Source: Galerina marginata
Taxonomy: Eukaryota; Basidiomycota; Agaricomycetes; Agaricales; Galerinaceae
Direction of reading: 5' to 3'
Assembly (NCBI GenBank): GCA_023014335.1
Contig: JAECYW010000015.1
Coordinates: 372,001 to 436,000, forward strand
Length of the DNA: 64,000 nt
The notes under the pieces are model-generated. The model searched no databases. It was not told the origin of the DNA and was given only the letters and a program-made list of their open reading frames with translations. Below are positions 7,205-42,109 of this stretch, piece after piece (position 1 is the first letter of the stretch; every line of letters begins with the position of its first letter). The translations under genes and the position numbers were made by a program.

Positions 7205-9066
7205 ATGGGCACATGCATGTCGGCACCGACAGGGGGTGCAGAAGTCAGCGAGCGCGATAGGGTGTTGCACAGGGAAGCAGAGAAACAGCTCAAGGAGGTG
7301 CGTGTTCACAAGCTCTTTCTACACTCCCCAGCATCGCCCGCCCATGGAAGTCGCTCGTATCACAAACACTAACTACTGTCCTTCTGCAGGCAAAGGCCAA
7401 GATGGCATCGCAGGTCAAGGTTAGTTACTCTTTCGATTAAAGCTTGTCCCATCGCCCAATGCCCTTGTCCAGGTCCTTCTCCTAGGTTCAGGCGACTCGG
7501 GAAAGTCTACTGTTCTCAAGGTGCGTTATCTCCGTCCCCTCGGTGTCGTAACGTCGGTCAGGGAAGTCTCATATTTGGATATTTTCCCTTTTCCAGCAAA
7601 TGCGCCTGATACACAAAGTGCCATTCTCACCGTCAGAAATCGAGCACTACCGCCAACTAGTGTTCGAAAATCTAACCCGCGGTCTCCGGTATCTGCTGGA
7701 TGCTATGGAGGACATGGAGCTGAAGGTGTCCGACGACAATCTCCCACACTTGGATTTAATTGATGGCGTCCGGGATATACGAGACGCAGAGCCTTTCCCA
7801 ATGGCTTATTACACGCCACTCAAATCGCTCTGGGAGGATATAGAAGTGCAAAAGGCTTGGGAGAGGGGTAACGAAGCGGCTCTACCGGAGAAGTGAGTAT
7901 AATTCGCAGCACTGCTTCTGGCGCTCAACTGAGGTGTTTTTTCCAGCTTATCGTACTTCTACTCGGATTTGGAGCGCTTATTCGATCCTATATATCAACC
8001 GACGGAACAAGACATCATTCGGTGTCGAGCACGCACGATAGGGATCACAGAGACGACATTCTTGCTCCGAGAACACGAAATGCTGATGGTCGATGTGGGT
8101 GGGCAGAAGAGCGAGCGGAGAAAGTGGATTCATTGCTTCCAGGATGTTACGAGTATACTCTTCCTGGTGAGCTTGAGCGGGTACGACCAATGTTTGGTGG
8201 AGGATAGGGATGCGGTGCGTCTAAAAATAAGCCACAATTTTCGAGCACAAGACTGACCGTACTTTTGCTCTTAGAACCAAATGCAAGACGCGATGACAAT
8301 CTGGGACTCGATATGTCACTCCCAGTGGTTCAAGCAAACGTCAATTGTGAGTATGCATGTGCATGTACCCGTCTATCCGTACCGCCCGCCGACGCTCGTC
8401 ATATGTCTAGATTCTATTCCTAAACAAGAACGATCTCTTCGAGAAAAAGATTCCCACGTCCGATATCAAGAACTTCTTCCCGGTATGTCCGCCTTGTCCC
8501 AGTGTGGGCTGTAATAAGTATTCATCAATTCGTCGTGATATTCAGGATTTCGACGGCGAGGCAGGTGATATCAAGGCGGGTCGGGATTATTTCAAACGCA
8601 GGTTCGCCAGGCTCGCTCAGAAAGCCGGACGGTCGAAAGAACGAGAGATCTATATTCAGTAAGGCATCCTGTTTCCCACTTTCACTTGCGTGAGTCTGAT
8701 GATGTTCACGTCCACGCTTTGCCTCCCACCTCTCTCAATCCTATTGTACCTATTTGTGTGCTTGCTCACTAGTATTACCACGGCGACGGATACTGCCATG
8801 CTCCGGGTCGTAATGGCTGCGGTCGAAGGTACGTTCTTACCCCGTTCTGTTCAGAAGACGCCAAGTTTCTAACTGACCTTGTGTTCCTCGTAGAGTGAGT
8901 TCCTTTCTTTCGTTACCTTTCATGCCCCCGGCGTTGTTATTGCTTTTCTTGGGCCGAGTGCATCCTTGCCCGGTTGAATCCGATTACCAATCGTACGCTC
9001 ATCATCCTCTGAACTTGCTATAGCATCACCCTACGTTCCAACCTCGAAACGGCGGCGTTGATATAA
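7205..9066 (+). CDS. Heterotrimeric G-protein alpha subunit
   Basis: Eleven exons sum to 1092 nt, that is 363 residues: 7205-7297, 7390-7419, 7473-7520, 7597-7892, 7947-8214, 8275-8346, 8411-8482, 8546-8658, 8773-8828, 8894 (one base) and 9024-9066. Motifs in order: N-terminal MGTC for myristoylation and palmitoylation, P-loop GSGDSGKST (G1), RARTIGITET (switch I with the arginine finger), DVGGQKSERRKW (switch II), NKND (G4, canonical NKxD), TATDT (G5), and a C-terminal helix ending NLETAALI. It would bind a seven-transmembrane receptor and beta-gamma at the plasma membrane, signalling in mating or nutrient sensing. The KSE and NKND variants suggest one of the lineage-expanded Agaricomycete alphas. 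The C-terminus needs a one-base exon, see findings. Confidence 0.93.
8894..8894 (+). other. Predicted one-nucleotide exon of the G-alpha gene
   Basis: The base A at 8894 is bounded by an acceptor (cctcgtag) and a strong donor (gtgagt). Flanking introns are 8829-8893 (65 nt, branch-like ctaac/ctgac) and 8895-9023 (129 nt). Only with this single base do the exons read on into VEDITLRSNLETAALI, which has exactly the length and N-L-x4-L pattern of the G-alpha C-terminal helix. Confidence 0.6.
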
Positions 9067-12000
9067 CCTCTTTCTCAATATCTATCTTCGCCTTTTTTCA
9101 TCTACTGTATTTTTCATATTATACCTTAAGCCATTTTTTCTCGCTTTGTATCATCTCATCCTTTTTATCTCCTCTTCCCTGATTTCGTCTTTGGATATTG
9201 ACGCAACTTATTTTTTCATATTGCTCTCGAACTGCCCTGTTGCCTACCCCTGCGTGCAAACAAAACAAAAATCTCTCGCCCATTGAAACCTGATCGCACC
9301 GTTACGTCACGGTACAATAACCATTGCGATTCTGCATTCATAAAAACCCCGGAAATGAATTCTTCCGTCCGAACGCACCACGGAACAGTGCGATCGTAAG
9401 CAAAAACGTGAGTGTTCTTCCGTCCCGACCTGAGATCCCGAGTCCTTAACCCTGCCCGATGCGCTAGATCCGGTCAATTATGTTGTGAAATCTCAAGCGC
9501 CTTCGGTCCCCTAATCTCACCTATATCTTTTTGGTGCGTGTGGCGCGTCTGTTTTCTGCTCCGCATTTGACGACACTCATTGATGGATCCATCATTCTTA
9601 GCATTCATGTCTCAAAACGTACCAAACTCATCTGCTTGCTTGCTCGGTCCTTTCATCCGGAGGACGGGCGGGCCTGATCTCTGAAAGTCGCCTACCGAAA
9701 TACATACTCAGGATCGCAGCTCGTTGTTCTCCCGAGGCACATCACCCCTCCTTCCATTCCCCTTGTCTTGTTACGTCTCATCACATACACACACAACACC
9801 ATCACCACACATTTGGCCATGATCAAAAAACTTCACCCTAATACTGATCTTCGGCGCACACAGTATCTACGAACGCCATTATTAACTCTGAAGGAAAGAT
9901 TTTGCAACGGAACTTACACAGAATCTGGGGTCTAGTGAAGTGACAGATTTGTCGCCCACTACGCCGACGCGGACGGAGTTGAGTTGCCAGTTTCGAATTC
10001 GGGGCGGGGTATCCTGCCTTGAACCGCACCGAGGGAGGCTGCCATGCGTTACAAGACAAGCTTTCTTCCTTCGTCTCAGCACTTCGACATTGCCCTCGCG
10101 CTTCTAATCCCAGCCCTCAAGATTCTGTTCCTGTGACCCCGCTTCGCCCATTTATCGCCCTATTTTTCTCCTTCCATGGAAGTGTATTAACAGATATCAC
10201 TTTTAAGCTATGTTTTTTCGTTCTTTCGTTATCTTCCACCACCGTCCTGTTATCCTTTCACATGTAGAAGTTCTATCGGACAGGAGTATATAATAAGCGT
10301 GCTGGGTTCTTATTTATATATGCCTTCGAATTCTTTTCTTCTGTTGCCCTCGATTTTCGTCCTTCCTCATTCTGCATCCCCTCCGCAACGTATCCCTCAC
10401 AACATATCCACATTATGTACCCACTCATCATTTGTATCTCGAGGCCCGTTGTTATGTAATTCTGTGTTGTGTACCTACCTCTTGACGACTCAATTTTAGC
10501 GCCTGCCAGATCGTGCATGTCTACCCATTCCCTCGCCAAGGCCTCGGCTATCTTCCTTCAAGTTTACAAGGCATCAAGCATCACACTATCCAGGTTAACT
10601 GGTCTTGACATAGCAAACCTATTCTACTGCGCATGAGCTACCATCTCAGGCCCGGTGTGTCAATCTGTGAGCATTACGCGCCATTATAGGTCATGCCACC
10701 CCCGCACACTACGAAATCACCCCAATCTTAAAATATAGTAGCCATTAGTAAGTTCTCCTCCACGGCTAAGGTCATTTTTGATGACGAGATAGTAATGTCC
10801 CTCGAAGAGAAGAAATCAGGGCCCGTGCTTCAGTCAATGGGAAATTCAGTCTGAGTTTTTTTTCCTTCAGTCATCTTGCCGTTCCCTCCGAGTTGCTGGA
10901 CGAGAATTTACACATTGCGTTGTTTCCTCATTGCTACATAATTAAACTCGGGTGAATTGTTTTCCATTCTGCTCCAGGAGTCACGGCATCGCCTAGAATT
11001 GCGCGCTCAGCACATGCCCTATGCTCAATTAGGAGTGGCAGGACGACATATCAATCTAAAATACACAACGGACGTCGGGTAGTTTCAAAAGTTTAAGTAC
11101 ATTACAGATGGGCACTGGAAACGTTTGATTCAGATATGATGGCAGTATGGTGCTTGGACCTTTGAAAGACAGCTGGGGACCACGATGGATTAGTGAGCTG
11201 ATGAGTGAACTGTACGTGATATGTTATTTAGGATGAACATAGCGTGGTCTTACCTCGGCCAAATTGTGCCAGAGAGATCCTTCAGAGCGGCCTGGACTGG
11301 GATTCCGGGATGAGGATGCACTGAAAATATACGCAAGCAATCCGAGAACACCAGACATCAGAAAGTTCCAAAGTAGATCTAGGCGAAATTTCAACGGATC
11401 GGGGAGGCGATATTCCTCTTGGACTTTCTATCGATGTTCCACTGAGACTGTAATTATGCCATTCTTGGCTGCCACCTAGGGGTATTGTGCAGAAAATAAC
11501 AGAGCGGCCAGCCAGGCTATAGCAATACGACTGACAGATGTATATTGGAGGATCCTAGTGTCCCCCTGCCCCCCGCGGAGGTTTTGGCCATTCCAAAAAC
11601 ATGATAACCCTAGGCTGTACGAGGTGGTACGAACAAATCTAAGATCTCCCTCCAAGCTCCAGAGAAGTCGACAAATTGGGGAATTTCGGCCAGATGAAGT
11701 TTAGCTTCAGTATTCCGACACAGCTATCAAAGGGCCCAGCAAGGGTTCCAACTTTCTGGTCCTGAGATTGTATGTAGGCTCGAAGCAGTTCGAAGCCAAG
11801 GGCATCGCGTGAGCCCTGTGATGAAATATCGGCCCGGCATCCGACGCACCTTTGACTCCTTCCGGTTCCGGATTTTTATCGACTGCATTCCTAACCATGA
11901 TCATCCTACTAGCAACCCACTACAACTGCTTCCCTGTGATTCTATCAATTTCGGAGCAATTTCGGGCTGGGTCTTGTCTCTGAATTTCGAGAATATGTCG

Positions 12001-39751: not shown

Positions 39752-40002
39752 ATGTCCACATTTAAACCTTCGTTAGAGTTCATTTCCTCAGTCCTGGCTT
39801 GCATTGCCTTAGCACTGGCAGATATTCCGATTCCGCGAGACTAGTCCCCGAGGTCAAGTTTCCAGTAAAGGTGATCGTAAAAGACAAGTATCGAGTGGCC
39901 TTTCTGTTAATTGGTAAAGAGGATTCGACTGAGGCAACGCAATTGGGAAGCTCGCCCTTCAAGAGGCGTTCAAGGCGTGGTAGACATCAGAGACTGGCCT
40001 GA
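39752..40002 (+). pseudogene. Possible broken small secreted protein gene
   Basis: ATG at 39752 opens a good signal peptide (MSTFKPSLEFISSVLACIAL, ending ALADIP) that stops after 30 codons. The +1 frame carries on with SARLVPEVKFPVKVIVKDKY and AFLLIGKEDSTEATQ to a stop at 40000-40002. A single-base shift would join the two, and I see no intron that would do it. Either a frameshifted relic or chance; family unknown. Confidence 0.3.
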
Positions 40003-40077
40003 CAGTCTCATCGCAGCTTAAAAGCAAGCCGTTTCGGTCCGAAATATTCTCACGGCCTGTCCTGCTTAAGTCGAGAC

Positions 40078-40440
40078 TTGTTCCAAAACTTCTCTTGTTC
40101 CACCAGGACCGCCTTGACGATTCCATTCGATATCTTTGAGTACATCATCGATACCTTAAGTACAGTACAGGATGTCCCGTCTATCAAAGCGGTGTCGCCG
40201 ACCTGCCATACTATGGTCCCACCGTGCCGCAAGCGCCTTTTCTCGTCTGTTTACTTCAATCGCAAGAAACCTGGTGTTGACGAACTAAAGGCGCTCGAGG
40301 TGTTGATACATTAATATTACTCATGTTGCCTGCGGTACATTCGGCTTATCAGATATTTCATGGTGAAGAGACTGGAATGCACTGTCAGCGTCGATCCAAT
40401 CCTCTTTGCGTCTCGGTCCCTTCAAGTTACGCCGCAGATC
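40078..40440 (+). pseudogene. Degenerate F-box gene fragment
   Basis: The first frame reads IPFDIFEYIIDTLSTVQDV, then SPTCHTMVPPCRKRLFSSVY, typical F-box family text related to the window's left-edge gene. It ends at a stop near 40314. Text that looks like the usual continuation (LRYIRLIRYFMVK) resumes in another frame from about 40330. The frameshift and overlap with the opposite-strand gene at 40546-41006 argue for a pseudogene. Confidence 0.65.
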
Positions 40441-40545
40441 AAGCAGATTTATGAACAAGAAACATACACCATTTAAAATTGTCCTGACAAAGGAGTTGAA
40501 TTCTAGTACACAGTCATCGCGGGCAACAAGATTGAATAGCAGTTG

Positions 40546-41006
40546 TCAATGTTTCATTGTCGACAGCTGCAGTCTTCCGGCCCAGCCGTTCTCGTAATCT
40601 ATCGTCGGATTTCTAGCCACTCGGCGTCGATTATCCCTCCACCAGTCATACATGTAGGAAACGCCCACCACAATAAGAAGCGCTCCGAAGACTGGACCAT
40701 AAAATCAGGCCCCTTTCGAGAGAAATAAATAAAAATTCTCACCGCAACCTATTACGATCCCTGAGATTATCCACTTTTTCTTTGGGATATCACAAGTAGT
40801 AGGGCTTAGGTTCCTAAGATATAAAGGGTAAATTCATGCAATTAGGAATTTTGATACTCTTTTAGGTATTAAGTATGGCACGCTCACTCAGTACTCGTAT
40901 AGACAGTGTATCCCCAAGGGCATCTCACCGCCACCAAAGCCGCGTGCGCGCCAGAGATTGCAAAGGAAGCCACAGCCAGCGCTAAAAACAATAATGATTG
41001 ATTCAT
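40546..41006 (-). CDS. Small single-pass membrane protein with signal peptide, second member
   Basis: Exons 41006-40888, 40813-40743 and 40691-40546 sum to 111 residues plus stop with matching phases. A signal peptide (MNQSLLFLALAVASFAISGA) leads to a short ectodomain with two cysteines (VRCPWGYTVYTSTE; TTCDIPKKK), then the transmembrane helix WIISGIVIGCVFGALLIVVG and YMYDWWRDNRRRVARN as stop-transfer and tail. Exon layout and topology equal the gene at 38.7-39.3 kb, with introns placed just before and inside the membrane helix, so the two are probably distant paralogues. The gene is easy to miss because no exon is longer than 146 bases. Confidence 0.65.
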
Positions 41007-41236
41007 GGGTAGGATCCGGTGGGCAATGGTGAAGGTTACAAGCAGGAGGCAGAGATAAACAGATGTCTAAGGAGGCCGCGAGAAGGTCCCTATTTAAACG
41101 ATCGAAGTACATCAAATGTTGTATTGAGAAGGCCCTTTTAGTAGTTGAGCTACTCAAGAGGACAACGGCGAAGCGATTCCTTTATAGGCCAAAAGCGGTC
41201 TTGTGAGGAGTTGTGGGCCCGCGGTACCTAGGTGTT

Positions 41237-42109
41237 TCAGAGGTCGGCGTCTCGCACACTTGTGCGCTTCACAATCCGATTCAAGCCCAGAAGCGTACCA
41301 GACTCGAACTTCTTTACAAGAACTGCAGTCTGGCCCTGAAAAATGGCAATCGAGAAGTTGTACACAGCTAAAAATAACCATCTACAGGACTATACTTAGC
41401 TGGTAAGTTCTTGATTACCATCGATGCCAAAGAGCTGACCAACCTGAGATTTTGAAGGCATGAACGTCGACAGCATCCAGTCACCGTTGCGGTTGCAACC
41501 CGTCATATGAGAGCAGAGGTCTTCATGATTGGGCGCTATAAAGTAGTCTCTTGTTTGGGCCTGTGGCCACTTGGCCTCGTTGGGAATGGAGCCGCGCAAG
41601 GAACCGTTTACGAAACCATGTCCATGTCACCGACGTTAAAAAGAGTGCCCAAATATTTTAGGTTGCGATGTCGGGAATGAAGCCGTCTGAATCCCGAGTA
41701 ACTGGTCTTTTGGGTTGTTCAAGCGCTATTTTGAGGGGTCCAGGTCGCTGCTGATTTGAAGAGGGTTCAAAGGGACAAGGCATGAATAATAAGGAGCCTG
41801 CGTAAACGACCGTGCCGGGGTTTCTTCCGCGTTGCCAATGTATCACTTCCGAAGTTAGTTTTACGAAGCACTTAGAACTGGAGTAAGGGTTGCTGTCGGC
41901 GAGTCCAAGAACAGCGCCACTCCCGAGAGGTGTCGAGCCTGAGCCGCTTTCGCCCTCTGGTCCAAAAGACTATGTACTGTGGTGCGACGCAGGACTCGGA
42001 CTTAATCAACAAGCCAAGTACCATGATCGCGCAGACGAATGCCGCCTACATATCCAGTCGGTTGTTTGAAGCAGAGCTCTGGTATCCCACTGTAACCGAC
42101 GAGAGGTTC
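41237..42109 (-). CDS. Hypothetical protein, gene model incomplete at the 5' end
   Basis: Coding-like exons on the minus strand can be chained: EPLVGYSGIPELCFKQPTGY (from 42109), SFGPEGESGSGSTPLGSGAV through VYAGSLLFMPCPFEPSSNQQ, AQTRDYFIAPNHEDLCSHMT to GQLFGID, and AVYNFSIAIFQGQTAVLVKK to the stop at 41237-41239. Several splice sites are good (gtaggc...catag, gtaatc...tttag); one donor (GTTACT) is weak. No start exon was found and no family is recognised. It could also be a partly decayed gene. Confidence 0.35.

Follow-up and report, generated by a model that had tools for sequence, protein, structure and literature searches.

A probable one-nucleotide exon ahead of two alternative C-termini in a G-alpha gene of Galerina marginata

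The window analysed here, a stretch of 64,000 nucleotides (nt) of Galerina marginata contig JAECYW010000015.1, carries a gene for a G-alpha subunit at positions 7205-9066 of its + strand. Within this gene a single base, A8894, is very probably a genuine one-nucleotide exon, widely conserved in Agaricomycetes, and would act as the common donor for two alternative G-alpha C-termini. The base would supply the middle position of a conserved Asp codon in helix alpha-5, and one gene would give two G-alphas, different only in their receptor-contacting C-terminus. The third base of this same Asp codon is the first base of both endings and, because each begins in this way, both would need the one-base exon; judged from the sequence, this need of both endings for the same missing A is the strongest single argument for it. 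The gene is laid out as follows, in window positions (in motifs given below, a slash marks a splice junction):

7205..7297, + strand: exon 1, starting with ATG; N-terminus MGTCMS
7390..7419, + strand: exon 2
7473..7520, + strand: exon 3, with the P-loop region GSGDSGKS
7597..7892, + strand: exon 4
7947..8214, + strand: exon 5, with the switch region DVGGQ, inside the PF00503 match
8275..8346, + strand: exon 6
8411..8482, + strand: exon 7, with NKND
8546..8658, + strand: exon 8
8773..8828, + strand: exon 9, last bases GTC GAA G, phase 1; ends in ..TTATDTAMLRVVMAAVE
8829..8893, + strand: intron 9, 65 nt, gtacgt...cgtag, branch-like CTAAC at 8869
8894..8894, + strand: probable one-nucleotide exon, a single A that forms the second position of the Asp codon GA[C/T], common to both C-termini
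8895..9023, + strand: intron 10A, 129 nt, gtgagt...tatag, without a YTRAY branch match
9024..9066, + strand: terminal exon A, C ATC ACC ... TAA, giving (D)ITLRSNLETAALI; tail A found in 41/70 environmental-contig rows
8895..9388, + strand: intron 10B, 494 nt, containing exon A (9024..9066) and alternative to intron 10A; putative splice
9389..9407, + strand: exon B1, 19 nt, T GCG ATC GTA AGC AAA AAC, giving (D)AIVSKN
9408..9467, + strand: intron B2, 60 nt, gtgagt...gctag, TTAAC at 9446
9468..9488, + strand: terminal exon B2, ATC CGG TCA ATT ATG TTG TGA, giving IRSIML-stop; tail B found in 29/70 environmental-contig rows

With A8894 included, the frame runs into VED-ITLRSNLETAALI. If 8828 is joined straight to 9024 the result is VE-ASPYVPTSKRRR, and if 8894 is read through it is VEE-stop; the original prediction had called the former a wrong C-terminus and had announced the latter for a stop at the first acceptor, and it was right in both cases. 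The sites required by the one-base exon are present (donor 8828/gtacgt, acceptor ...ttcctcgtag/A8894, donor A/gtgagt, acceptor ...cttgctatag/9024), and the cgtag and gtgagt that flank the base, on which that prediction relied, are unchanged in the second haplotype described below. Exactly one base lies between AG and GT and the frame is kept only with it. This AG/A/GTGAGT, at 8892-8896, is the single AGNGT within 8829-9388, and among the 413 AGNGT sites of the 64-kb window (221 + 192, both strands) only the A8894 site reaches both its splice scores (acceptor 4.2, donor 6.9), calculated with a small matrix derived from 8 introns of the G-alpha gene itself. The eleven exons up to the stop of tail A, over a genomic span of 1862 nt, total 1092 nt or 364 codons including TAA, the sum that had been predicted, and encode the product VEDITLRSNLETAALI of 363 residues. 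On solved chains of Gq-alpha the C-terminus containing A8894 aligns gap-free to residue 359, VED facing VKD, which agrees with the predicted fit to the receptor-contacting helix of G-alpha proteins; both tails align in this way from the TATDT stretch to query residue 359, at the place of alpha-5.

Other readings of this region were tried and set aside. Further donors and acceptors for introns 9-10 were looked for and no other AGNGT exists in 8829-9388; of the 11 AGs listed from 8895 to about 9500, only 9024 and 9389 open a G-alpha-like tail; and cutting exon 9 at GTCGA loses one residue and needs a non-GT donor, while the 70 listed environmental copies retain VED. The one-base exon is alone, among the readings tried, in recovering the conserved aspartate through canonical sites with no need of an indel, so the original proposal is supported on this point.

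Relatives of the protein carry two tails, A (I.LRSNLETAALI; like ITLRSNLESAALI) and B (like AIVSKNIRTIML), and the window has coding sequence for each. Tail B was located by scanning the AGs 3' of the one-base exon. Exons B1 and B2 joined through A8894 make 1089 nt and end in VED-AIVSKNIRSIML, the tail being divided as AIVSKN/IRSIML. Scored with a profile of 38 B tails, these twelve residues reach 41.3, above the relatives' own median of 39.7; the next-best split candidates stay at -1.9 on the + strand and -3.8 on the - strand, and 20 mononucleotide shuffles gave at most 7.0. The gtgagt donor of exon B1 is the top-scoring donor in 8829-9500 (7.8). The locus thus has two in-frame 3' ends behind one common donor, the arrangement of alternative terminal exons. 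The feature had originally been drawn as 8829..9023; the observation is confirmed, but the second tail at 9389-9488 lies outside these limits and its probable use of the same base had been missed. Exon B1, with its 19 nt, is itself a microexon.

The window is placed on C7 of the 69.3-Mb assembly, and a syntenic copy lies on C14, with the gene at C14:934-937 kb (C14:934000-937500); window 40000-42000 likewise matches C14:994337-996339 at 92% identity, and the assembly looks dikaryotic or only partly collapsed. The two haplotypes are identical at 238/238 positions over 8829-9066, and over 9389-9488 they show 99 matches, 0 mismatches and one gap column, which falls inside intron B2. In neither copy is a splice site or an exon of either tail disrupted. 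Thirteen codons differ between the haplotypes, all silently, so the same A and B proteins are encoded by both.

The gene belongs to a large family, with 69 exon-level PF00503 matches at about 25 places of the assembly. In the window, the match to this profile covers 7555-8349, in the middle exons, with 213.8 bits against a curated cut-off of 48.8. Galerina marginata P0001 is the closest named protein among the matches listed (99% identity, 96% query coverage); the named relatives among them are mostly labelled GPA2-like, alpha-2 or G-alpha subunit 4, the others being hypothetical, and by the names of its best named relatives the product is GPA2-like, a member of the GPA2-like / G-alpha subunit 4 group of Agaricomycetes. 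The laboratory mushroom Coprinopsis cinerea also has a homologue, P0023. Alike G-alpha loci lie at C17:8 kb, C40:39 kb and C1:4320 kb. By a text anchor, the C-terminal stretch was found in the second haplotype and in 5/19 other loci: at C17, C40 and C1:4320k it has no intron and is read through (..VKETILQNALKDSGIL, ..VKETISQNALKDSGIL), and at C43:671k and C1:4371k an intron lies farther upstream. The intron pair around the one-base exon occurs in none of these five paralogous loci with the stretch found, of the 19.

Three protein searches, one queried with tail B and another with tail A, gave 169 different rows (the best 120 of 5573, of 248 and of 185 matches; each row is a 90% cluster); environmental contigs (jgi, lgn, ena) supplied 70 of them, and named genomes or public records the other 99. 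Because the queries carried the tails, the ratio of A to B among them is no measure of expression. At the protein level, VED followed by an intact tail is found in all 70 listed environmental rows (41 A, 29 B) and in 0/99 of the listed others. D349 is invariant in the aligned rows, 30 of type A and 28 of type B. For at least 25 of the 70 environmental rows the longest contig of the cluster is shorter than 1500 nt, yet at least 340 amino acids are encoded; since such contigs are shorter than the genomic span of the gene here, these rows most likely represent spliced copies.

The C-termini are different in the other 99 listed rows, those of named genomes or public records. VEE endings, the read-through product of AG/A/GTGA or AG/A/GTAA, occur in 27, and the Galerina public model P0001 is among this type: with 350 residues it stops at VEE without the receptor-contacting end and matches the read-through form in length. 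VED is present in one, P0085, followed by an unrelated tail. VEG precedes an intact tail in 22, with an extra residue in 7 and matching VED exactly in place and length in 15, and seven further rows reach tail A only via a longer stretch absent from the environmental copies. With 0/99 intact at this place, the listed rows suggest that in public models of this G-alpha the receptor-contacting part is missing or distorted. VEE models come from Agaricales, Polyporales, Russulales and Corticiales, and A- or B-tailed models also from Boletales and Jaapiales, one species per order having been checked for this assignment. In Armillaria, two group proteins each are listed for A. mellea (P0036/P0152), A. 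nabsnona (P0041/P0101) and A. solidipes (P0075/P0078), which suggests a duplication in the genus.

The two tails sit on the same kind of body. A body tree was built from 82 of 159 rows, those whose tail could be recognised and whose body had at least 300 residues, and mean body identity is 0.788 for A-A, 0.780 for B-B and 0.781 for A-B. The tails are mixed on this tree, where the label changes 21 times, at least nine changes being forced by well-supported branches. Near-identical bodies bear different tails: Suillus fuscotomentosus P0059 (A) and environmental P0068 (B) share 345/348 body residues, environmental P0160 (A) and P0127 (B) share 376/390, and the Mycena olivaceomarginata models P0131 (B) and P0162 (A) share 299/303 aligned body residues, next to 52 gap columns that come from differing exon models.

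It could be argued that the relatives have two paralogous genes, one for each tail, and that the match in the window is the trace of a duplicated terminal exon. Some Armillaria species do have two listed proteins, the A/B pairs of A. solidipes (P0075/P0078) and of environmental P0124/P0137 are looser (319/347 and 301/329 body residues), and tail labels are mildly clustered on the body tree. Yet body identity is nearly equal within and between tail types, the well-supported branches force the label to change repeatedly, and the single gene here has both tails behind it; we consider two genes highly improbable. It is less far-fetched, though still improbable, that the one-base exon is real and only tail A is made here, tail B being a relic or the product of a neighbouring transcript. 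The acceptor of B1 is indeed weak and intron 10B long; against this, neither the B exons nor their GT/AG sites are damaged or differ between the haplotypes, the lone gap column falling within intron B2, and the window's B tail scores higher than the median of the 38 relatives' tails. That there is no one-base exon at all, the frame being rescued by a non-canonical junction or by an extra A added through RNA editing, is extremely improbable. Taken at face value, the 15 rows whose VEG matches VED in place and length would call for an exon 9 one G longer, with a non-GT donor, but D and not G stands in 70/70 listed environmental copies, and a canonical AG/A/GTGAGT with CTAAC upstream sits exactly where it is needed. 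As the A is missing at each of the two separate acceptors downstream, editing would have to hit both products. These 15 VEG rows look rather as if a spliced read had been mapped and one of its bases left unplaced.

Several observations weigh against a one-nucleotide exon serving two endings, which we prefer. Within intron 9, two AGs, which would open exons at 8855 and 8858, outscore the acceptor of the one-base exon, with 7.6 and 5.1 against 4.2; we set them aside as too near the donor of exon 9 (26-29 nt). Acceptor scores are low for exons A (-1.7), B1 (-6.5) and B2 (-3.3), compared with 4.1 to 13.4 for the eight matrix introns, and intron 10B measures 494 nt against 53-129 nt for the other introns of the gene. 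Branch-like sequences had been predicted for both introns; CTAAC at 8869 bears this out for intron 9, but a search of intron 10A for the YTRAY motif found no match. On the body tree the tail labels are somewhat clustered, with 21 changes against a shuffled mean of about 27.7 (in 500 shuffles, as few changes in 2 (A) and 7 (B)), and the nearest neighbour has the same tail type in 53/82, a clustering that could stem from near-copies and from the tail-directed queries. AlphaFold models of one type B relative (P0007) and one type A relative (P0003) have a pLDDT (predicted local distance difference test score) below 50 at both tails; they are uninformative on the tails and were not used. Finally, it is from their length that we take the environmental contigs to be spliced transcripts, and from the DNA that we infer splicing in Galerina marginata, the order of intron removal, its regulation and its function.

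How such an exon would be handled can be proposed as follows. Removal would be stepwise, intron 9 first, leaving ...GAAGA/gtgagt as a donor for either 9024 or 9389; this order is likely because a single base offers no space for U1 and U2AF at the same time. The donor context AGA/gtgagt is unchanged by the first splice, since exon 9 and intron 9 both terminate in AG. The choice between A and B would then result from competition between two weak acceptors (9024 and 9389), together with early polyadenylation behind exon A, and polyadenylation within 9067-9388 would perhaps be decisive. The poor acceptor scores and the missing YTRAY motif fit a regulated use of the endings, a use that is predicted for this species. 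The last residues of G-alpha proteins bear on receptor choice, and the choice of A or B would alter receptor coupling. It appears to us evenly balanced whether, throughout Agaricomycetes, a regulated switch of the receptor end of a single G-alpha turns obligatorily on the one-nucleotide exon, with one gene coupling to two sets of receptors and an unfinished second splice yielding a natural, receptor-uncoupled G-alpha ending in VEE.

In the open-licence literature we found no report of a one-base exon in a G-alpha gene, of a one-base exon serving alternative ends, or of alternative G-alpha ends in fungi, and a term search of the splicing paper on Schizophyllum commune (PMC5034255) returned no passage on such an exon or such endings. 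If true, this would be a broadly conserved fungal one-base exon, with signs in several orders of one class and situated in a core signalling gene. The system would offer a test case for how the spliceosome handles an exon without space for exon definition, and for whether G-protein coupling in mushrooms is switched by splicing or not.

Animal G-alpha-o also obtains two C-terminal ends from one gene, there by swapping whole exons of normal size, and is not known to use a one-base exon. One-base exons are known from other genes. The single-nucleotide exon of Arabidopsis APC11 (Guo and Liu 2015, PMC4674806), demonstrated with cDNA and mutants and called constitutive, is a one-base A exon between GT/AG introns, absent from annotation and frame-restoring, as would be A8894, and stepwise intron removal has been proposed for it too; unlike APC11, the G-alpha exon would serve two alternative ends, and the evidence for it is comparative. 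With the one-nt microexon of plant VPS55 (PMC8831610) it shares deep conservation, omission from annotation and a GTRAGT donor, but the G-alpha microexon would be present in both forms and it is the terminal exons that differ. A one-base exon has also been reported from placozoan mitochondria (PMC5436844). Among filamentous fungi, Trichoderma Xlr2 contains a functional microexon (PMC11121469), which acts as a switch in a transcription factor, unlike that of G-alpha. The closest likeness in position is the read-supported one-nucleotide exon of Fusarium CYP621A (Nelson and Syed 2026, PMC12940212), described by its authors as the first for a fungal gene: here too a fungal one-base exon provides the middle base of a conserved codon. 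That exon is a G, conserved at the level of the genus and leading to one product, whereas the G-alpha exon is an A, has left signs in several orders of Agaricomycetes, and would lead a signalling gene to two endings.
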